64,000 nt of DNA, from NCBI RefSeq assembly GCF_001598215.1, contig NZ_BCXJ01000002.1, positions 310,001 through 374,000 on the forward strand, written 5' to 3'. Under the pieces are notes generated by a model. The model was not told the DNA's origin and made no database searches. It was given only the letters and a program-made list of their open reading frames with translations. The translations under genes were made by a program, and so were the position numbers. The stretch is from Shouchella clausii (GTDB taxonomy: Bacteria > Bacillota > Bacilli > Bacillales > Bacillaceae_D). Below, piece by piece: positions 48,894-61,209 of this stretch (positions within the stretch are counted from its first letter, which is position 1; the number at the start of each line of letters is the position of its first letter).

Positions 48894-48972
48894 CATTAAG
48901 TTTTACCTGCAATTCTGGTATGATAGATTTGGAGTTTGTAATTCATTTCGATTATAAAAAAGGGTGATGAAA

Positions 48973-50361
48973 ATGGAAACGCGTACAGAAAGAGATACAA
49001 TCGGCGAAATCGAAGTTCCAGCAGACCGTTTTTGGGGCGCACAAACACAACGTAGCCTGGAAAACTTTAAAATTGGCACCGAAAAAATTCCTTTTGAAGT
49101 TGTTCTCGCCTTCGCCCACTTGAAGAAAGCTGCAGCCATTGTCAACGGGCGCTTAAAAGGACTCGACTCTCGCAAAGTTGAAGCGATTACATATGCAGCC
49201 GATAAAATCATTGAGGGCGGACTAGAAGATCATTTCCCTTTAGTTGTCTGGCAAACAGGTAGCGGCACGCAGTCTAACATGAATATGAATGAAGTGCTGG
49301 CTTACTTAGCAAACCAATACTTAGATGAAAATGGACATCATGATGTTCGTGTCCATCCGAACGACGATGTCAACCACTCACAAAGTTCAAACGATACATT
49401 TCCAACAGCAATGCATGTCGCTACTGTTGTTTTTGCGGAAGAAAACCTCCTTCCAGCGATTCGCGCCTTTAAAGAAACACTTGCTGAAAAAGAAGAGGCC
49501 TTTTCGGATGTTGTTAAAATTGGCCGTACACACTTGCAAGATGCGACTCCGCTCACATTTGGGCAAGAAATCAGCGGTTGGAAACATATGCTCCAAACAT
49601 GCGAAACACTGATTAGCGAAGCACTTGAACATGTACGTTCTCTCACGATCGGCGGAACGGCTGTTGGCACTGGCCTAAACGCGCCAGTCGGTTTTAGCAA
49701 AGAAGTTTCTGCTCAACTTACAAAGCAAACAGGCGTCGCCTTTAAAGCATCGGAAAACTTTTTCCATGGCTTGACAAGCCATGACGAGCTCGTCCATTTT
49801 CATGGCGCGCTGAAAGCACTGGCTGCCGATGCGTTTAAAATTGCAAATGACATTCGCTTGCTTGCAAGCGGGCCGCGCTGTGGCATTGGTGAAGTGTTGA
49901 TTCCTGCCAATGAACCAGGTAGCTCAATTATGCCTGGGAAAGTCAATCCGACGCAAAGTGAAGCGTTAACGATGGTAGCAGCCCAAGTGATGGGGAACGA
50001 TGCGGCAGTCGGCTTTGCCGCAAGCCAAGGCCATTTTCAGCTAAATGTGTTTAAACCAGTCATTATTTACAATGTCCTTCAATCGATGCGTCTTCTTGCA
50101 GACGGGCTCAACAACTTCCGCAACAAATGTTTAGTTGGCCTAAAAGCAGACGAAGAAAAAATGGCGCAATTGTTAAATGAATCTCTTATGCTTGTGACTG
50201 CCCTTAACCCACACATCGGCTACGAAAATGCCGCAAAAATTGCGAAAAAAGCACATGCTGAAAACACAACGCTTAAAGAAGCTGCTATTGAGTCAGGGTT
50301 GCTGACTGAAGAGCAATTTGACGAATATGTAGTTCCAAAGGAAATGATTGCCCCAAAATAA
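48973..50361 (+). CDS. fumC: Class II fumarate hydratase
   Basis: A 462-residue fumarase of the fumarase/aspartase superfamily (TCA cycle). It has [12 protein letters not shown], the catalytic [15 protein letters not shown]-equivalent TAVGTG, and the superfamily loop [16 protein letters not shown] with the catalytic Ser. N-terminus [12 protein letters not shown] aligns with B. subtilis CitG MEYRIERDTMGE, so I chose the ATG at 48973. Confidence 0.95.
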
Positions 50362-52864: not shown

Positions 52865-53302
52865 ATGACTTATTGTACGAAAGTTGCCGCTAGCGCGCAA
52901 GAACACTCGGACTGCGCCAGTGTGCGGCACTATGTATTCATTGAAGAACAAGGCGTCTCCCCTTCCATTGAACGGGATCAGTATGACGAGTCTGCTACAC
53001 ACATCATCATGTACGACGGAAAAACACCGATCGGTACAGGGCGTGTCCGCTTATTGGCTAATGAGGAGGCGAAAATTGAACGGGTTTGTGTGATCAAAGA
53101 AAAGCGTCGGTCAGGTGCAGGGAAACAATTAATGACAGCGCTTGAAGAAGCGTGCGCAAGAATGGGGGCGAAAACAGCAAAGCTCCATGCTCAAACCCAC
53201 GCGAGCTATTTTTATGAAAAGCTTGGTTACACAGTAACTTCCCCTGAATTTATTGATGCTGGCATCCCCCATGTGACGATGAGCAAACCTCTTAATAGCT
53301 GA
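52865..53302 (+). CDS. yjcF: GNAT N-acetyltransferase YjcF
   Basis: A 145-residue GNAT-fold protein. The acetyl-CoA-binding motif A is IERVCVIKEKRRSGAGKQLMTALEE; motif B is in the KLGYTVTSPEF stretch. Substrate unknown. The stop codon adjoins repeat copy D. It is the third gene of the yjcHGF unit. Confidence 0.88.
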   Translation: MTYCTKVAASAQEHSDCASVRHYVFIEEQGVSPSIERDQYDESATHIIMYDGKTPIGTGRVRLLANEEAKIERVCVIKEKRRSGAGKQLMTALEEACARMGAKTAKLHAQTHASYFYEKLGYTVTSPEFIDAGIPHVTMSKPLNS

Positions 53303-53359
53303 CTGATAGAAAACGCTTGTCATACGAGGAGTGCAGGCGAGGGAAGAAGCGAATAGAAC
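53301..53359 (-). repeat. Dispersed intergenic repeat, copy D (3' module)
   Basis: On the minus strand this reads GTTCTATTCGCTTCTT..., CGCCTGCACTCCTCGT, then GACAAGCGTTTTCTATCAGTC. This is nearly identical to the 3' module of copy C at 33085-33148. It starts at the yjcF stop codon and its other end forms one arm of the 28-bp inverted repeat. Confidence 0.75.
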
Positions 53360-53403
53360 AATAGCTGGAGACAGAGTCTCCAGCTATTGTTCTATTCGCT
53401 TCT
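53345..53403. repeat. 28-bp perfect inverted repeat overlapping the fusion gene's 3' end
   Basis: Positions 53345-53372 (beginning AGAAGCGAATAGAACAATAG) are the exact reverse complement of 53376-53403, with a 3-nt loop AGA. The right arm contains the last seven codons (EKRIEQ plus stop) of the minus-strand fusion gene; the left arm includes the end of repeat D. It may act as a bidirectional terminator despite the lack of a T tract. Confidence 0.85.
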
Positions 53404-54430
53404 CTTGCACAGATTTACGTTTTCCTTCCATCGTTAAAGGCTGATCGCGGCGGTCGTCAATACGAATCGATGTTGCCGTCCTCAAGGCTCCTTGTTCAAA
53501 CGGTGCTTCATGGATTTTTTGGATCACTTCAAATAACACAGGCAGCTCTGCCTCAATCAACGTGCTCATAGGGGTAAGCTCGTAACGGATTTGCTTTTCT
53601 TTCCGATAGGAGTCAAGCACTTGTTGGATATATGCTACATAAGCGCTAACGCTTGTAGAAGAAGTACCAATTGGAATGATCGATACGTCTGCAATTGCCA
53701 TTCTCTTGTTCTCCTTTTGCGGAAGCCTCCGCTTTTTTATGTTTTCCGGAAAAGCCAAATAGCCTAACTGTTGATAGGCGGCGATCGCGCATTGAAGATG
53801 CTTCTCGCCAGGCTCTTTCGTTGTCACATGAAGTTGCAACCAGTAGGAAAGAATTAAAACGACCTTCTCGAACCATTTTAGCCACGGCTTGCGGTGAAAA
53901 AGTTGATAAAAGACAACAATAGCCAGAGCCGCATAGGAGGAAACCATTAGCGCTTGTTCTATTGGCGTGAACAAGGAAAGCCCCCCGCTTAGAAGGAAGA
54001 CGCTTAAAAAATAGACGACAACGAGCCCGGTGGAACAACCACGATTGCGAATATCCGCTCTTTTTATCGCCTTTAATCGTTCCGTACAAATACGCCCTCT
54101 TGCACTAAACACTTTATGCTCTGCTCCATGGTACTTTTTTAACGGCTCAGGAAATAGAAAATGCCCAGCAAACAATAAATAAAAGAACGTATAAACAGGC
54201 AACCCATTCCAGCCGCTTGGAACGATTTTGGGCCCAATGATCAAACACAGCAGTGCGACAAAGAGCACGACGAACCGAAATGGCATGGTTTTCACAATCA
54301 GTTTGCCAGCTTGTAAATAAGCTGGCATTCCGGCAGGCTTTCCCCACGAATGTAGCTTGCCCTGTTTATCATAGTAGGCACAAGACAAAAAGCCTGCCCC
54401 GCTGTAAAAAATCCCCACATTAAACGACAT
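53384..54430 (-). CDS. Fusion: DUF1385 (YqhQ-like) membrane protein + YqgV/MTH1187 thiamine-binding domain
   Basis: A 348-residue protein. Residues 1-240 are DUF1385/YqhQ-like: KYHGAEHKVFS, RNRGCSTGLVV and the diagnostic WLQLHVTTKEPGEKHLQCAIAAYQQLG, with about four membrane segments. Residues 244-348 are a complete UPF0045/YqgV domain: MAIADVSIIPIGT, IRYELTPMSTLIEAEL, TSIRIDDRRDQPLTM. These 100-residue domains bind thiamine in solved structures. At the junction AAAAGGAG lies 9 nt before the ATG at 53701, exactly the normal YqgV start, so a separate 105-residue product (53384-53701) may also be made. It is the likely last gene of the thi operon, starting 4 nt after its upstream neighbour; GTG 54454 is an alternative start. 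Confidence 0.8.
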   Translation of the reverse strand: MSFNVGIFYSGAGFLSCAYYDKQGKLHSWGKPAGMPAYLQAGKLIVKTMPFRFVVLFVALLCLIIGPKIVPSGWNGLPVYTFFYLLFAGHFLFPEPLKKYHGAEHKVFSARGRICTERLKAIKRADIRNRGCSTGLVVVYFLSVFLLSGGLSLFTPIEQALMVSSYAALAIVVFYQLFHRKPWLKWFEKVVLILSYWLQLHVTTKEPGEKHLQCAIAAYQQLGYLAFPENIKKRRLPQKENKRMAIADVSIIPIGTSSTSVSAYVAYIQQVLDSYRKEKQIRYELTPMSTLIEAELPVLFEVIQKIHEAPFEQGALRTATSIRIDDRRDQPLTMEGKRKSVQEKRIEQ

Positions 54431-54434
54431 GCCG

Positions 54435-54992
54435 CTAATCCGCAAGCAACTCACCTAATTCCACCGTTTTTACCCAATGCTGAACGTTTTTGGCACTACC
54501 AAAAGAAGGTGCTTCAAAAGTAGCGTCCTCCATTGTCAACGGTTCATGGTTCGTCCACGTATGTAGAACAGAAATGGTGATGTCTTCAGCAGAAGCAGGC
54601 AACGGTTGGACAATCGTGCCCCTCGTGCCAATACTTTGATGTTCTGCCATTTCTGTCGGGTATGCAAAAATAATCCCGTTTTCAACACGCTCGCCTTTAT
54701 AGCGATGTTGTTCTTCTATATCAAGCACTGCCTCGCCAACTTCCACTTCATCTCCCCCAGTAAAGGCAATGCCAATATAGTCGGTTCCATACATGCCTTC
54801 TGCTGGCATTTGCGGCCAGCTCCATTCAAGTGACAACGTACCGTCTTCCGCCCGTTCAGCAACCAATTCAATTTCAGCTTTAAGCTGTTCGTTCGTCATC
54901 GTTTCTTCTTGGTTCAAGTAATAAATACCGCTTAAAGCGATCGCGATCATTAAAATGACCGGCAATATCAATACGACTATATGCTTTCTCAA
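54435..54992 (-). CDS. Membrane-anchored hypothetical protein in the thiamine operon
   Basis: A 185-residue protein: a lysine/arginine start, one N-terminal membrane helix (HIVVLILPVILMIAIALSGIYYL) and an acidic extracellular beta-rich domain (LSLEWSWPQMPAEGMYGTDYIGIAF, later HTWTNHEPLTMEDATF). I do not recognise the family. Start TTG at 54992 has AAGGGGG 6 nt upstream and overlaps the thiD stop. Position between thiD and the thiamine-binding fusion suggests a thiamine-related extracellular role, but this is inference. Confidence 0.65.
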   Translation of the reverse strand: MRKHIVVLILPVILMIAIALSGIYYLNQEETMTNEQLKAEIELVAERAEDGTLSLEWSWPQMPAEGMYGTDYIGIAFTGGDEVEVGEAVLDIEEQHRYKGERVENGIIFAYPTEMAEHQSIGTRGTIVQPLPASAEDITISVLHTWTNHEPLTMEDATFEAPSFGSAKNVQHWVKTVELGELLAD

Positions 54993-55807
54993 TTGCAACC
55001 CCCTTCTTGGCCAAGGCGGCGATAAGCAGCATGATCGGTCGGGCCGATTCCGGCTCCTAATGGGATTCCTTCCGAAATCGCGGCAGTCACATACGCTTTT
55101 GCTGTTTTAGCTGCTTCGATTGGCTTTCTCCCTTTTGCGAGTTCTGCTGCTATCGCTGAAGCAAACGTACAACCAGTCCCATGTGTATGCTTTCTGTCTA
55201 GCCGTTTTGCCTTTAACTCAAAGAAAGCTTGGCCATCATAGCATAAATCAATCGCTTCCCCTTGTTGCAAATGGCCACCTTTCAAAATGACCAGCTTAGG
55301 TCCCATTTTATGCAATTGTACCGCGGCTGCTTTCATTTCAGCAATGGTTTTACATTCTGGTTTATTAAGGAGCATGGCCGTTTCAGGCAAATTAGGCGTA
55401 AATACAGTCGCAAGTGGCAAAAGCTTTTGTACAAGCACCTGTTGGCCTTTCGCCGAAAGAAGCGCTGTTCCACTTGTCGAAGCCATGACAGGATCAACGA
55501 CGATGTTAGCCACTCCATAGGTTTTCGCCAATTCAGCCACCGTCGTGACAATGTCTGCATTGACCAACATGCCTGTCTTGATGACATGAACACCGATATC
55601 ACTTAATACCGCTTCAATTTGGTCCCGTACAATCGTGGCATCAAGTCCTTGCCACGATTGTACGCCAGTTGTATTTTGGGCTGTAATTGCAGTAATGGCA
55701 GTAGCAGCATAAACGCCAAGCTCTTGGCATGTTTTTATATCAGCTTGAATGCCAGCGCCGCCGCTGGAATCTGAACCAGCAACGGAGAGGACTGTTGGAA
55801 TTGGCAT
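54989..55807 (-). CDS. thiD: Hydroxymethylpyrimidine/phosphomethylpyrimidine kinase
   Basis: A 272-residue ribokinase-fold enzyme producing HMP-PP. Features include VAGSDSSGGAGIQADIKT at the N-terminus, MLVNADIV, VVDPVMASTSG and the anion hole/catalytic KHTHGTGCTFASAIAA. It follows thiO by 20 nt. Confidence 0.94.
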   Translation of the reverse strand: MPIPTVLSVAGSDSSGGAGIQADIKTCQELGVYAATAITAITAQNTTGVQSWQGLDATIVRDQIEAVLSDIGVHVIKTGMLVNADIVTTVAELAKTYGVANIVVDPVMASTSGTALLSAKGQQVLVQKLLPLATVFTPNLPETAMLLNKPECKTIAEMKAAAVQLHKMGPKLVILKGGHLQQGEAIDLCYDGQAFFELKAKRLDRKHTHGTGCTFASAIAAELAKGRKPIEAAKTAKAYVTAAISEGIPLGAGIGPTDHAAYRRLGQEGGCN

Positions 55808-55827
55808 CAGTACGCCTCCTTTTATGA

Positions 55828-56934
55828 CTACGAAAAACGTTCTGGCTCAAAAAGGGCGATTGGTACAGGTGGCTTTTGCCCAGCCAACTGCGCACTCGCT
55901 ATTTTTGCGGTAATAGCGCTTAATAAAATGCCGTTCCGGTAATGGCCACAAGCCATAAAAACGCGGGGATGGTTGCGGAGAAAACCGATAAGCGGATAAC
56001 CGTCTTGTGTCGCCGGCCTAAGGCCAGCCCATTTATGAAACGGCGAAAGTTCAGCTAAAAAGGGGACCATCTTATGGTTCCAATTTGTTAGGCGGCGAAT
56101 GCCCTTGTCGGTAATTTCTGTTTGAAAGCCAGCGATATCTTCAGATGCACCATTGACAAGTGTGCCATTTGCTTTTGGGACAAGATACCCTTGGCTTGTG
56201 TATAAAATGTGGCGAATACGGCCTGGTTCAATATTGTAAGCACAAATCTGCCCTCTTATTGGATAAATGGGCAAGTTAAGGCCAAGCTGGCTTTCTAGCT
56301 CTTTCGCCCATGCACCTGTCGCCACAACGAGCTGGTCTGCTGTAAAACGTTGCCCTGAAGCGCTTTGTAGCTCGATGTAGGGCTCTGTTTTTACGAGTGA
56401 AACGTGTTTGAGCTGCTCATAAATGTGGACGCCGCGATTTCTACAAGCCTGTTGCAACGCCTTTACATAATCAGGCGCGTAGACATGAGCTTCTTCTGGA
56501 TAGTGGATCGCACCAATCATGTCTTCAGCAAGCTCAGGCTCTTTCTTCTTCAACTCTTCGCGTGTCAATACGTCGACTTTCGCCCCAAATTCCTCTTGCC
56601 ATGCTTTTCTGGTGGCAAGTGACAACAAATCAGCTTCATGATAAACGCAATGAAGGCTCCCTGATTCTGTAAATTCAAACGTCATGCCTGACTCCTGTTT
56701 CACTAACGCTTGCCATTCTTTAAAAGCACGCAAACTCGCTAAACAGAGGCGAAAAAAATCATCTGGATCCTCGCCAATTTCTGAATACGGGGCAAGCATG
56801 CCTGCAGCTGCGCCAGATGCCTGCCCGCCACATGTGTTTATTTCTAGGACAGAAACAGCCTTGCCGTCCATCGCTAACTGAAAAGCAACAGACAACCCAA
56901 TAACGCCGCCCCCTAAAACAATTGTATGCTCCAT
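55828..56934 (-). CDS. thiO: Glycine oxidase ThiO
   Basis: A 368-residue FAD enzyme of the DAO family; it makes iminoglycine for the thiazole ring. The FAD-binding Rossmann motif is IVLGGGVIGLSVAFQLA, with the conserved RPATQDGYPLIGFL and ACGHYRNGILLSAITA at the C-terminus. It lies 5 nt downstream of thiG. Confidence 0.93.
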   Translation of the reverse strand: MEHTIVLGGGVIGLSVAFQLAMDGKAVSVLEINTCGGQASGAAAGMLAPYSEIGEDPDDFFRLCLASLRAFKEWQALVKQESGMTFEFTESGSLHCVYHEADLLSLATRKAWQEEFGAKVDVLTREELKKKEPELAEDMIGAIHYPEEAHVYAPDYVKALQQACRNRGVHIYEQLKHVSLVKTEPYIELQSASGQRFTADQLVVATGAWAKELESQLGLNLPIYPIRGQICAYNIEPGRIRHILYTSQGYLVPKANGTLVNGASEDIAGFQTEITDKGIRRLTNWNHKMVPFLAELSPFHKWAGLRPATQDGYPLIGFLRNHPRVFMACGHYRNGILLSAITAKIASAQLAGQKPPVPIALFEPERFS

Positions 56935-56939
56935 TTAGA

Positions 56940-57731
56940 CTACCCCTTACTGTGAACGGACAGTAAATCGTCAAGCTGGCTGCTTGCTGTCGCATAACGC
57001 TTCATCGGTATGCGCCCTGCTTCGTAGGACAACAAACCGGCTTCAATGGCTTGTTTCATTGCCAGCGCCATTTTTACTGGATCCTTCGCTTTCGCTACTG
57101 CCGTGTTCATTAATACTCCATCTGCTCCTAATTCCATTGCCTTGGCGACATCGCTTGCTGAACCGAGGCCAGCATCCACAATGATCGGTACAGAAGCCTC
57201 CTCGCTAATTACGCCAAGGTTATACGGGTTTAATATGCCGAGGCCAGTGCCAATTGGAGAAGCTCCAGGCATAACTGCCGCTGCACCAGCTTCCTCAAGT
57301 TTTTTGCAAAGAATTGGGTCATCTGATGTATACGGCAATACAGTAAACCCTTCTTTTGCTAAAGCTTCAGTCGCTTTTAATGTCTCGATTGGATCAGGCA
57401 AAAGCGTTTTTTCAGATACGCTGATTTCGACTTTGATCCAATCACTCAGCCCAGCAGCTCGGGCCAAACGAGCAATACGGATTGCCTCTTCAGCGTTATT
57501 CGCTCCTGATGTGTTTGGCAAGTATTGAAAAGTGCGCCCTTCTAAATGCTGCAAAATCGCATCCTCATCAGGGTGTTCTAAGTTAATGCGGCGAATGGCA
57601 AACGTTAAAACATCCGCGCCAGAGGCTTTAATGGCTTCATTTTGAACAACCGGGTTTGGATAACGGCCTGTCCCAATGAAAAACCGCGATGACAGCGTTT
57701 TTCCACCAATAGCAAGTGGTGCTTTTTTCAT
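56940..57731 (-). CDS. thiG: Thiazole synthase ThiG
   Basis: A 263-residue TIM-barrel enzyme forming the thiazole phosphate from DXP, dehydroglycine and ThiS thiocarboxylate. The Schiff-base Lys lies in DWIKVEIS; other family segments are [27 protein letters not shown] and [18 protein letters not shown]. 2 nt downstream of thiS. Confidence 0.95.
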
Positions 57732-57733
57732 GT

Positions 57734-57931
57734 TTACCCTCCCCCTACGAAATGGACTAGCTCGATTTTCATTCCTTCGCTCAAAGAAGTGGCCTCCCAG
57801 TCAACCCGGTCAATAATCGTCCCATTGACTTCCGCCACCACTAGTTGGCTCGCTAAGCCAAACTCAGAAACAAGTTCGCTAAGCGTTGTGCTTTCTGCAA
57901 TTCGTTCTTCACCATTCACGACTAATTTCAT
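57734..57931 (-). CDS. thiS: Sulfur carrier protein ThiS
   Basis: A 65-residue ubiquitin-like carrier ending VHFVGGG; the C-terminal Gly-Gly is adenylated by ThiF and converted to thiocarboxylate. One glycine more than the usual GG end is present (VGGG). ThiF is not in the window. ATGA overlap with thiE. Confidence 0.92.
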
Positions 57932-58557
57932 TGACTTGCCTCCTCCATCGCAGCGAGCAACGCTTGACTAGCTGCTTTGACGTCACTGGCAGCAACAATT
58001 TCGGTGATGACGCAAATCGCTTCAGCACCAGCCTCGATTACTTCACGGACATTATGACGCTTGATCCCGCCAATTGCCACAAACGGAATCGTCACATGTT
58101 CCTTTACTTCGCGAATATAAGCAGTTGTAACCGGGTCTACTACATCCGCTTTACTGTTTGTTGGAAAAATCGGGCCGACGCCAATATAATCGGCTCCGTT
58201 CTTTTCAGCTTCAAGCGCCTCTTCCAGCTTGTGGGTAGAAACGCCAATGATTTTGTCTGGCCCCAGCAATTTTCTCACTTCTGGAAGGGGCAAATCATCT
58301 TGTCCAACATGGACGCCGCTTGCGTCGACGGCAAGGGCGACATCAATATGGTCATTGACAATAAACGGAATTCCATAATCCGCCGCAAGCTTTTTTAGCC
58401 TACGGGCTTTTTCCAAGACAGCCTTTTTGCTGCTCGTTTTATCACGAAGCTGAATAATGTCAACCCCACCTTGGATGGCTTCTTCCATCACTTCTACGAC
58501 ATCGCGTCCAGGATGGAATTCTTCTCCTGTAATCGCGTAAAGTCGAAAAGGCTTCAT
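57928..58557 (-). CDS. thiE: Thiamine-phosphate synthase ThiE
   Basis: A 209-residue TIM-barrel enzyme coupling HMP-PP with thiazole phosphate to make thiamine monophosphate. The substrate-binding motifs QLRDKTSSK, VNDHIDVAL, GVHVGQDDLPL and GVGPIFPTNSK are intact, so this is ThiE rather than TenI. I chose the ATG at 58557 with AAAGGAG upstream; the frame extends through the riboswitch terminator. Confidence 0.95.
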   Translation of the reverse strand: MKPFRLYAITGEEFHPGRDVVEVMEEAIQGGVDIIQLRDKTSSKKAVLEKARRLKKLAADYGIPFIVNDHIDVALAVDASGVHVGQDDLPLPEVRKLLGPDKIIGVSTHKLEEALEAEKNGADYIGVGPIFPTNSKADVVDPVTTAYIREVKEHVTIPFVAIGGIKRHNVREVIEAGAEAICVITEIVAASDVKAASQALLAAMEEASQ

Positions 58558-58577
58558 GTTGTTCACTCCTTTTGCAA

Positions 58578-58608
58578 AATAAAAAGGCCAAAGCGAGAAG
58601 CTTCGGCC
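58578..58608 (-). terminator. Riboswitch-controlled terminator before thiE
   Basis: Arms GGCCGAAGC and GCTTTGGCC (one wobble) on the minus strand, a 5-nt loop and TTTTTATTTT. It lies between the TPP aptamer and the thiE ribosome binding site, so TPP binding probably promotes termination. Confidence 0.82.
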
Positions 58609-58643
58609 ACATGCAAGCATGTCATTCAATCACGGCAAACCGA

Positions 58644-58733
58644 CTTCCCTCCGCTGGCATCACCCAGATCAGGTTATTAGGGTAAAAGAAATACGTTCTA
58701 ATTCTCAGCCTAACTTCATTAGGCACCCCTAGT
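58644..58733 (-). promoter_or_regulatory. TPP riboswitch (THI element) of the thi operon
   Basis: On the minus strand the aptamer has AGGGGTGCC, GGCTGAGA, then ACCTGATCTGGGTGATGCCAG and CGGAGGGAAG, the conserved THI box. It senses thiamine pyrophosphate and controls the thiE-thiS-thiG-thiO-thiD transcript via the following terminator. Confidence 0.95.
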
Positions 58734-58744
58734 CTTTCTATTTC

Positions 58745-58772
58745 ATTATCGCATACAATGATCCATTTGCAA
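58745..58772 (-). promoter_or_regulatory. Sigma-A promoter of the thi operon
   Basis: Minus-strand TTGCAA (58767-58772), 16-nt spacer, GATAAT (58745-58750), about 12 nt before the aptamer. Confidence 0.65.
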
Positions 58773-58795
58773 AAGCAAAAGTCGCTCTTTAGTGG

Positions 58796-60208
58796 TTACA
58801 ATGATAAAAAACGGGAACCCGCGATACCCGGTTTCGTCATTTCTTTTGGATCAAGAATTTCGTTCAACTCTTCCTCTGAAAGGATGCCCCTTTCAAGGCA
58901 AATTTCCCTGACTGGTCGCCCTGTTTCGATTGCCTCTTTAGCAACACGAGTCGCAACTTCATAGCCGACATGGGGATTGATTGCCGTCACAATACCGACA
59001 CTATGCTCAACGAGTTCGCGACACCGTTCCACATTAGCCGTAATGCCGGAAATGGCGTAATCCTTAAAGACACGCATGCCGTTTTGTAGCACCGTTAATG
59101 ATTGCAGTAAATTAAAAACGAGTACTGGTTCCATCACGTTTAGTTCAAGTTGGCCCGCTTCTGAAGCAAGGCTGATCGTATGGTCATTGCCGATAACTTG
59201 AAAAGAGAGCTGGTTAATGACTTCACACATGACCGGATTAACTTTTCCGGGCATGATCGATGAACCCGGCTGTCGTGGTGGTAAATTGATTTCATTCAAT
59301 CCGGTCCGCGGGCCCGAGCTCATTAAACGTAAGTCATTCGCGATTTTTGATAAATTAATGGCTAAAATTTTTAACGAACTAGAAAGCTCCGTATATGCAT
59401 CTGTATTTTGTGTGGCATCAACAAGGTCCTCCGCCGTTTTCAACGGTAATTGAGTCAAGTCAGCCAAATGTTTTGCCACTCTTTCAATGTATTCCGGTTT
59501 TGCGTTCAAGCCAGTTCCTACAGCCGTTGCACCCATATTGACTTCGTGGAGGTGGTCTGCCGAACGGCTTACCCGTTTTAAATCACGGGCTAGCACTCTG
59601 CGGTACGAGCCAAATTCCTGCCCTAATCGGATAGGAACTGCGTCTTGTAGATGGGTCCGTCCCATTTTTAGGACGCTGTCAAATTCTTCGGCTTTCGCGT
59701 CCATTTCGTTGATCAATTTGTGCAATTCTTCCGTCAAGCCCCGTGTCATATTTAAAGCGGCAATATGAATCGCTGTCGGGAATGAATCATTGGTAGACTG
59801 GGCCATGTTGACGTGTGTATTAGGGCTGACTTTTAAATAATCGCCTTTTTCGCCGCCAAGAATTTCAATCGCCCGGTTAGCAATGACTTCGTTGGCATTC
59901 ATATTAAACGACGTGCCGGCGCCTCCTTGGATTGAATCGACAATAAAATGATCATTCAAACGCCCTTCAATCACTTCATCGCTTGCCTTGATAATGGCTT
60001 CAGCAATGTGAGGACGCAGTACACCGACATCGCGGTTTGCAAGGGCAGCCGCTTTTTTCACATAGCCAAAAGCGCGAATAAGCTCAGGGTGGGGCGGATA
60101 GCCGGTAATCGGAAAATTATCTTTTGCCCGCAGCGATTGGATGCCATAATAAGCATGTTTCGGTACTTGTTTTTCTCCTAGTAAGTCTCGTTCAACCCGG
60201 TACTCCAT
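58796..60208 (-). CDS. aspA: Aspartate ammonia-lyase
   Basis: A 470-residue enzyme deaminating aspartate to fumarate, superfamily sister of fumC in this window. Signatures are GTSFNMNANEVIANRA, STNDSFPTAIH, and the catalytic loop [16 protein letters not shown]-terminus MEYRVERDLLGEKQVP matches the aspartase rather than fumarase type. I chose the ATG at 60208 with AAAAAGGAG 9 nt upstream. Confidence 0.93.
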   Translation of the reverse strand: MEYRVERDLLGEKQVPKHAYYGIQSLRAKDNFPITGYPPHPELIRAFGYVKKAAALANRDVGVLRPHIAEAIIKASDEVIEGRLNDHFIVDSIQGGAGTSFNMNANEVIANRAIEILGGEKGDYLKVSPNTHVNMAQSTNDSFPTAIHIAALNMTRGLTEELHKLINEMDAKAEEFDSVLKMGRTHLQDAVPIRLGQEFGSYRRVLARDLKRVSRSADHLHEVNMGATAVGTGLNAKPEYIERVAKHLADLTQLPLKTAEDLVDATQNTDAYTELSSSLKILAINLSKIANDLRLMSSGPRTGLNEINLPPRQPGSSIMPGKVNPVMCEVINQLSFQVIGNDHTISLASEAGQLELNVMEPVLVFNLLQSLTVLQNGMRVFKDYAISGITANVERCRELVEHSVGIVTAINPHVGYEVATRVAKEAIETGRPVREICLERGILSEEELNEILDPKEMTKPGIAGSRFLSL

Positions 60209-60231
60209 TTCATGCGACTCCTTTTTCTCAT

Positions 60232-61209
60232 TCACTTTTTTCCTAATGTCTCATCTTCTTGTGTTGCTTTTGCTTGAATAGCAAGCCAAACAGCACCGTA
60301 AATCCCAGCGTCATTCCCTAAATGGGCCAATTTGATTTCAGCACTCTCGGAAACACGGGGCAACGCAAATTGCTTAAATACGGTGCGAAGCGGGGCAAGC
60401 AAGCTTTCTTTTGCTTTAGAAACACCACCGCCGATAATGATTTTGGTCGGATTGAGCGCATTAGCCAGATTTGCTATCGCAAAACCAAGGTGGAAGGTTG
60501 CTTCACTTACCACATCCTTAGCAAGAGCATCGCCAGCTTTAGCGGCATCGAAAATGTCCTTTGTCGTTAATTTCCCTTCTCCAATGCTATGCAAAGAGCT
60601 ATCTAAATTTGTTGTTAACTTTTCCTTGGCAATCCGTAAAATGCCTGTTGCCGAAGATACGGTCTCCAGGCAGCCCGTCTTGCCACAATTGCACGGTGCC
60701 CCTCCTTTCGGGATGACCGTTATGTGGCCAATTTCGCCGCCCATTCCATTTGCGCCGTGGAGAATTTGCCCTCTTGTAATAATTCCACCGCCGACGCCTG
60801 TACCAAGCGTGATGAACAACTCTTCTTCAGCACCATCCCCAGCGCCGCGCCATTTTTCTCCAAGTGCAGCCAAATTGGCATCATTGTCGACGCGGACAAC
60901 CACTCCAAGAGCGCGTTCAAGCTCTTCCCTTAGTGGATAGTTGCGCCAGCCAATATTAACGGCATGGTGAATAAAACCAGTTTCCATTTCAATGAATCCT
61001 GGCGCACCTACTCCAGCCCCTAACAAGGTTGCATGTTGCGGCAGCCGGCTTTGAATGCTTGCAGCGATGTGATCGACAATGTGTTTGCCGTTTTCGCTCA
61101 CGTCTGTGGGAATCTCCCATTTATCTTTTAACTCGCCTGTTTCCGTAAGAAACGCCAACTTTACGGTGGTACCACCAATGTCAATTCCTGCATAGTAGTC
61201 CTCAGTCAT
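60232..61209 (-). CDS. glcK: ROK-family glucokinase GlcK
   Basis: A 325-residue kinase phosphorylating glucose. The ATP-binding motif is GIDIGGTTVKLAF; DNDANLAALGE carries the catalytic Asp; the zinc motif CNCGKTGCLE of ROK proteins is intact. Start ATG overlaps the yqgQ end (the GCAAATGACTGA region). yqgQ-glcK order is the same as in B. subtilis yqgQ-yqgR. Confidence 0.95.
   Translation of the reverse strand: MTEDYYAGIDIGGTTVKLAFLTETGELKDKWEIPTDVSENGKHIVDHIAASIQSRLPQHATLLGAGVGAPGFIEMETGFIHHAVNIGWRNYPLREELERALGVVVRVDNDANLAALGEKWRGAGDGAEEELFITLGTGVGGGIITRGQILHGANGMGGEIGHITVIPKGGAPCNCGKTGCLETVSSATGILRIAKEKLTTNLDSSLHSIGEGKLTTKDIFDAAKAGDALAKDVVSEATFHLGFAIANLANALNPTKIIIGGGVSKAKESLLAPLRTVFKQFALPRVSESAEIKLAHLGNDAGIYGAVWLAIQAKATQEDETLGKK

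Follow-up and report, generated by a model that had tools for sequence, protein, structure and literature searches.

The YqgV/MTH1187 family is oligomeric, and the structure entry of MTH1187 contains four chains. To our knowledge, no function has been assigned to DUF1385, and little has been established about what the YqgV-type domain does. The corresponding family, Thiamine_BP (PF01910), is named for thiamine binding, and a passage of PMC6393860 that cites Dermoun 2010 describes the family as possibly thiamine-binding. In the literature on DUF1385, YqhQ, YqgV/MTH1187, and UPF0045/DUF77, which was covered with subscription journals mostly outside, no paper on a fusion of the type described here was found among the matches listed, and no study of YqhQ function was found by title. 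PMC3711429 was considered as a source for DUF77 and set aside, since the relevant part of its text concerns DUF772. An internal start within a gene has been described in another system; i.e., according to a section of PMC11899642, Cas11b is produced from an in-frame internal start, as shown by experiment. In this study, we analyzed a DNA stretch of 64,000 nucleotides (the window, meaning this whole stretch), in which a gene joining DUF1385 and YqgV, here called FUS, follows thiamine biosynthesis genes and a gene for an anchored protein, here called ANC.

Organization of the locus

The window is assigned to a Shouchella, because a comparison over 247 aa showed no difference between the membrane part of its FUS and that of S. 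tritolerans. A TPP-riboswitch operon with the gene order thiE-thiS-thiG-thiO-thiD is followed by ANC and then by FUS, all on the minus strand, and the features are as follows.

58629..58740, minus strand: TPP riboswitch upstream of thiE (Rfam RF00059, 68.4 bits)
58586..58608, minus strand: terminator-like hairpin with T-run just past the aptamer (9 pairs, 6 of them G-C)
57928..58629, minus strand: thiE, open reading frame as listed (TIGR00693)
57734..57931, minus strand: thiS (PF02597)
56940..57731, minus strand: thiG (PF05690)
55828..56934, minus strand: thiO (TIGR02352)
54989..55807, minus strand: thiD (TIGR00097)
54435..54998, minus strand: ANC, no known family; start TTG 54998 or 54992, the latter overlapping the thiD stop
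53384..54454, minus strand: FUS, 356 aa; start GTG 54454 or TTG 54445 (Pfam and NCBIfam)
53702..53718, minus strand: internal Shine-Dalgarno (SD) region (AAAAGGAG at 53718-53711) and spacer (synonymous-recoding and codon tests)
53384..53701, minus strand: putative free Thiamine_BP product from ATG 53701 (conserved start; split relatives)
53351..53397, no strand assigned: palindromic hairpin where FUS and the GNAT gene converge (25 pairs)

The genes are tightly packed: ANC starts over the end of thiD, and FUS starts over the end of ANC, with an overlap of 20 nt if FUS uses its GTG start. The hairpin at 58586-58608 is probably the expression platform of the riboswitch, and its position inside the listed thiE reading frame suggests that the true start of thiE is probably the ATG at 58557, downstream of the hairpin. 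The sequence-only reading of this DNA had seen no promoter or terminator within the unit, which stands insofar as none of the sites is strong: promoter-like sites in 53200-59000 are about as frequent as chance predicts (8 found versus 7.3 expected). The claim has to be qualified for terminator-like sites, which are above chance in the same interval (18 found versus 7.7 expected). The sole good minus-strand hairpin with a T-run is that at 58608-58586, and the others are weak and lie within genes; those on the minus strand from thiD to the end of FUS have 5 to 7 pairs. The palindrome at 53351-53397, which takes in the last FUS codons, folds at -42.9 kcal/mol (z = -12.5, minus strand folding) and is called terminator-like on the plus strand only. 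The region is flanked by two paralogous genes of the same cluster (48964-50361, plus strand, and 58796-60235, minus strand), which we take to be of the fumarase/aspartase type.

Domains and predicted structures of FUS and ANC

Residues 99-229 of FUS match DUF1385 (PF07136; 45.9 bits, cut-off 22.1), and residues 255-350 match Thiamine_BP (PF01910; 106.1 bits, cut-off 24.9); FUS also matches TIGR00106 with 107.6 bits against a cut-off of 54.7. With both Pfam domains above their cut-offs, the suggestion that a YqhQ-like membrane domain is joined here to a YqgV domain is confirmed. The computed sizes are approximately 40 kDa for full FUS and 12.0 kDa for the free domain of 105 aa, in place of the 38 and 11.5 kDa proposed earlier. 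In the structure model of FUS (mean pLDDT = 92.9), the C-terminal domain has the MTH1187-type fold (Foldseek, 1lxn_A with TM = 0.85 and 1lxj with TM = 0.77, target-normalised), and no PDB match was found at E ≤ 0.001 for the model outside this domain.

The membrane domain of FUS probably contains four TM segments with the C-terminus in the cytosol, of which a hydropathy scan of the window FUS separates only three hydrophobic stretches; the first of these is long and is followed by a basic loop (10 Lys and Arg, 4 Asp and Glu). Structure alignments were made with 55 rows for the FUS membrane part, six of them lone short forms, and with 48 rows for ANC. Nine residues are invariant in the 55 rows (H98, H109, E112, H113, K114, N137, C140, S141, and T142). 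The HGAEHK segment is identical in 13 of 13 rows compared, 5 of which are canonical YqhQ, and a TTxxP segment is present in most of these 13. None of the fused and lone short rows in this comparison has the GGQAV N-terminal part; on this alignment, the FUS membrane domain is therefore a diverged short form of DUF1385, not YqhQ itself.

ANC consists of a single N-terminal TM helix and a predicted β-sandwich (model pLDDT = 91.2), and we read the β-sandwich domain as lying outside the membrane. A profile search of the window assigned ANC to no Pfam or NCBIfam family, no Pfam family was found in more than 2 of the 48 members of the ANC group at E 0.05 (best single E = 0.0021), and no PDB match was obtained by fold at E ≤ 0.001 or by sequence. 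An APT toxin-domain model, matched by 1 of the 48 members (E = 0.0021) with no second member, was rejected as a chance match. ANC is thus an unrecognised family, and its initial description as an unrecognised membrane-anchored protein holds, given the TM helix and the absence of a known family by profile or fold.

Distribution of FUS and ANC

In a set of 60 genomes, ANC was matched in 38 (own genome included) and some FUS match was found in 55, many of them to the YqgV part alone. Among the 38 genomes with ANC, the junction is fused in 33 and split in 4 (G003, G004, G007, and G011), and FUS is absent from 1 (G006). Two of the genomes with a fused junction, G005 and G026, have an interrupted membrane part ahead of it. 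Extraction of the junction motif gave none for six rows; five of these were N-terminal fragments of split or interrupted genes, and the sixth was L063, a fused open reading frame. DUF1385 was found in 51 of the 60 genomes searched. The 12 same-genus genomes (G000-G011, with G005 86% complete) gave no canonical YqhQ match, and any DUF1385 found in them is the diverged copy at the FUS locus. Canonical YqhQ occurs in 9 of the 36 family genomes and is interrupted in two of these. Across the same 36 genomes, no Thiamine_BP match other than FUS or its split copy exceeds 95 bits (second copies score up to 89), and FUS is the sole Thiamine_BP match in 7 fused genomes. The genome of the window has a second Thiamine_BP gene (L181; G000:C3:230591-230848), which does not lie beside thi genes and whose neighbor looks like a chromate-transporter gene, as we assume.

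Two short peptide patterns were used to scan 84,980 species genomes, which gave 88 loci; the best 80 of these were kept. A DUF1385-like part and YqgV are found together at 56 of these loci, referred to below as the named loci; 53 are fused and 3 are split. The other 24 of the best 80 comprise 23 short lone DUF1385 genes and one locus cut by a contig end (L174). The lone genes (L155-L180 except L156, L163, and L174) encode about 214 to 242 aa and are nearly all from Brevibacillus, and no YqgV domain was found near any of the 23. The fused gene occurs in Shouchella, Halalkalibacter, Alkalihalophilus, Alkalihalobacillus, Alkalicoccobacillus, Anaerobacillus, Evansella, Salipaludibacillus, Salibacterium, Alteribacillus, Marinococcus, Litchfieldia, and a few more; these genera are presumably mostly haloalkaliphiles. 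The range of the fusion among genomes may be wider than the pattern scan shows.

Where a locus has both genes, ANC and FUS are nearly always adjacent, either overlapping or separated by a short gap. No ANC was detected next to FUS in L134, L137, L146, and L153. In Halalkalibacter alkalisediminis (L113), ANC is present as two short open reading frames of 88 and 143 aa. The same-genus genome G006 (2.6 Mb; L097) has thi genes and ANC without FUS, and a palindrome and a convergent gene directly follow ANC.

Genomic context and linkage to thi genes

Two or more thi genes lie upstream of FUS in 33 of the 56 named loci, in some cases with an ABC pair in between. The remaining 23 consist of 21 loci without thi genes nearby, most of which keep ANC with FUS, and two (L119 and L131) cut by contig ends. 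A TPP riboswitch is present in the window and in all 7 of the thi-linked loci tested (of 33), so the proposed riboswitch control is supported where thi genes are linked. No Rfam TPP riboswitch was detected at the locus in the 14 unlinked loci tested (of 21); thiG and TPP riboswitches occur somewhere in all 21 unlinked genomes. A home-made riboswitch pattern, applied to the 80 loci, found four and clearly missed others, and Rfam was used instead. The linkage to thi genes originally proposed is consequently real in the 33 loci and weakened as the defining context by the 21 that keep FUS without thi genes.

All 21 unlinked loci have an ROK glucokinase upstream, and many linked loci have YqgU (PF21101, one member profiled) ahead of thiE. 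This neighborhood presumably corresponds to the yqgQ-glcK-yqgS-T-U-V order of B. subtilis, and the yqgV position close to glcK appears to be the older address of FUS. In several linked loci (L107, L110, L114, L118, L122, and L134) and unlinked loci (L132, L136, L142, L147, and L163), ANC or FUS comes after a UPF0014-type ABC pair, and in G054, which belongs to another family, an unfused yqgV follows thiE-S-G-O-D and the ABC pair. Thus, thi genes, the ABC pair, and yqgV repeatedly occur together, but the fusion does not depend on thi genes. The neighbors c16 and c20 were considered as ThiZ and ThiX, an assignment that was dropped because Pfam gives ABC_tran and UPF0014. The permeases of G054 and G059 score 221.1 and 201.6 bits, compared with the 410 bits that the FetB equivalog model requires. 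A search for NMT1-type (ThiY-like) genes matched a broad family.

A possible, although doubtful, alternative is that the module has nothing to do with thiamine, i.e., that the glcK address is old, that the thi genes arrived by chance, and that the module serves another ligand or a stress response. The unlinked loci, together with the lack of a TPP riboswitch in all of those tested, mean that the context does not require a thiamine role, and the UPF0014-type pair is another recurrent neighbor. On the other hand, the association with two or more thi genes in most of the named loci, the recurrence of the thi genes and the ABC pair before the unfused yqgV of G054 in another family, and the naming of the domain family for thiamine binding speak for a thiamine role.

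Internal start of the YqgV domain

The sequence AAAAGGAG ends 9 nt upstream of the internal ATG 53701. For comparison, the 54 fused genes (53 named and the window) gave 52 distinct junctions with a wider motif that caught all 54; a first motif had missed 12. As the null model, we used synonymous recodings that encode the same junction residues. The mean SD energy of the 52 junctions is -12.7 kcal/mol, versus -6.5 kcal/mol for the recodings, and every junction reaches -9.3 kcal/mol or lower; when the other internal Met codons of genes at these loci are examined (2004 codons), 4.8% reach a level of -8 kcal/mol. The ribosome binding site suggested at the exact start of YqgV is therefore a shared feature, with a strong SD in 52 of 52 distinct junctions. 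Taken singly, 25 of the 52 junctions give p < 0.05 (median p = 0.052; the rows are related by descent), and the strength of the SD evidence, as judged from these comparisons, is the agreement across junctions, not single p values. In a subset of 19 junctions that we chose to represent one per genus or separate species lineage, the Wilcoxon p is 3.8e-6 and the combined p is 1.2e-9, and GAG is found at position -4 in 18 of the 19.

The start codon itself is conserved as such. The 54 fused genes carry ATG (45), TTG (7), or GTG (2) at this position, and the probability that all nine non-ATG codons are start codons is about 6e-8 by Leu and Val usage, ignoring kinship. Codon choice in the linker follows the same pattern: within the SD core, Glu at -4 is encoded by GAG in 47 of 47 cases (32% expected) and Lys at -5 by AAG in 37 of 38 (34% expected). 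Glu codons at -3 and -5, within reach of the SD, lean toward GAG (14 of 24, p = 0.008, and 5 of 6, p = 0.015, respectively), and the linker Lys codons at -8, -7, -6, -2, and -1 have no significant bias (2/12, 2/14, 16/33, 15/34, and 3/16, respectively; p ≥ 0.098). In S. xiaoxiensis (L102), the residues are RRRR instead of KKE, and the SD is still present in another reading phase. The conservation of the junction is best read as selection on the RNA for initiation, not on the linker residues.

In the split relatives, the YqgV gene begins at the same internal start codon. The unfused yqgV genes of three distant relatives (G053, G054, and G056) have an SD of the same kind before the same start, MAIVDV or MAIIDV, which suggests that the FUS linker probably arose from the untranslated leader of a separate yqgV gene. 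Because the SD, the start codon, and the codon bias are conserved at the internal start, FUS probably gives two products, i.e., a membrane-bound protein of approximately 40 kDa and a free protein of 12 kDa. The SD in all 52 junctions and the start codon in all 54 genes thus make the predicted pair of membrane-tethered and free products likely.

That FUS is a plain fused protein, of which one product matters and in which the SD is a leftover of yqgV or a pause signal for membrane insertion, appears very unlikely. SD-like motifs do precede internal Met codons without known purpose, as the 4.8% given above illustrates, and 27 of the 52 junctions singly miss p = 0.05 against recoding. However, a leftover would decay, and the SD persists in every junction, with the codon bias located on the codons of the motif itself; a start codon is not required for a pause signal, yet ATG, TTG, or GTG is present in all 54 genes.

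Age of the fusion

A maximum-likelihood tree was calculated from 81 membrane-domain rows and midpoint rooted; L139 and L174 were left out, and two unnamed split rows and the window were added. A branch with 99/99 support parts the 58 fused and split rows from the 23 lone rows. Three label changes suffice for the tree, and the simplest history is one gain of the fusion followed by two splits, one in Shouchella (4 rows, near-copies among them) and the other in Sinobaca (1 row). Strong support places the split rows of Shouchella within fused rows of the same genus; the position of the Sinobaca row (L154) is unsure, since it is a long branch that may falsely join the Marinococcus rows, as the program warned. 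On the evidence of this tree, the fusion is old and the split forms are derived. In Bacillus sp. JCM 19041 (L139), a frame change lies inside the DUF1385 part; the YqgV part is intact, as is its GTG start.

Although split versions exist in some Shouchella and Sinobaca, the chance that the fusion in the window reflects a stop codon lost recently, as suggested earlier, or a sequencing error is practically negligible, because 53 named loci are fused, the fusion is ancestral to the split rows, and four of the five split rows form the one group nested within fused Shouchella.

Proposed mechanism

The fusion, its age, the selection at the internal start, the conserved neighbors, and the riboswitch are established at the level of sequence. 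We consider it fairly probable that these features are best explained jointly by a dual-product FUS, mixed oligomers at the membrane, ANC as a partner, and riboswitch coupling where the locus is linked to thi genes. Translation from the first start would yield a membrane protein with the short diverged DUF1385 domain and with its C-terminal YqgV/MTH1187 domain on the cytosolic side, and translation from the internal SD and its ATG, TTG, or GTG would yield the free YqgV domain; the linker joining the two domains encodes this SD, so it is likely the former leader of yqgV. Free and anchored copies could assemble into mixed oligomers, i.e., a ligand-binding YqgV oligomer that sits on the membrane with some of its subunits anchored, and ANC may be the outside partner of the FUS module. 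At the thi-linked loci, the TPP riboswitch would allow synthesis of the module when thiamine pyrophosphate runs short, with thiamine or a precursor then as the most likely ligand.

A more specific reading, which we regard as rather unlikely, is a two-sided device in which ANC on the outside and a four-TM FUS with its mixed oligomer would capture, sense, or move thiamine or a precursor. It would include, as a similarly speculative element, a ratio of anchored to free domain that is set by the internal start, with the TPP riboswitch wired to the device in one group.

The joining of DUF1385 and YqgV by a deeply conserved internal start means, under the dual-product explanation, that the cells need the binding domain both anchored and free. 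Either product can be removed by a few base changes that leave the other domain untouched, which allows clean tests. The locus is also an example of a ribosome binding site that may have turned into a protein linker while keeping its first job.

Comparison with known systems

The gene cas8b resembles FUS in that one gene gives nested products, of which the small one, Cas11b, is translated from an internal start that may have an SD. The proteins are different, and conservation is what reveals the internal start of FUS, whereas that of Cas11b is known from experiment. UPF0014/FetAB-type ABC transporters share the neighborhood, since the pair precedes ANC or the unfused yqgV in some relatives; however, the pair is absent from the operon of the window, and the two permeases tested are under the FetB cut-off. 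With YqhQ and other members of DUF1385 (PF07136), FUS shares a score over the Pfam cut-off and the HGAEHK segment, but it is shorter and lacks the YGGQAV N-terminal part, and FUS-type copies score 40 to 59 bits, compared with about 257 to 279 bits for intact canonical copies. The C-terminus of FUS resembles the MTH1187/YqgV/UPF0045 proteins (PF01910; 1LXN, 1LXJ, 2EKY, 1YQH, and 1VK8) in both profile and fold. The solved chains of this family are stand-alone proteins of approximately 100 aa, whereas the FUS domain is tied to a membrane protein and is apparently also made free.
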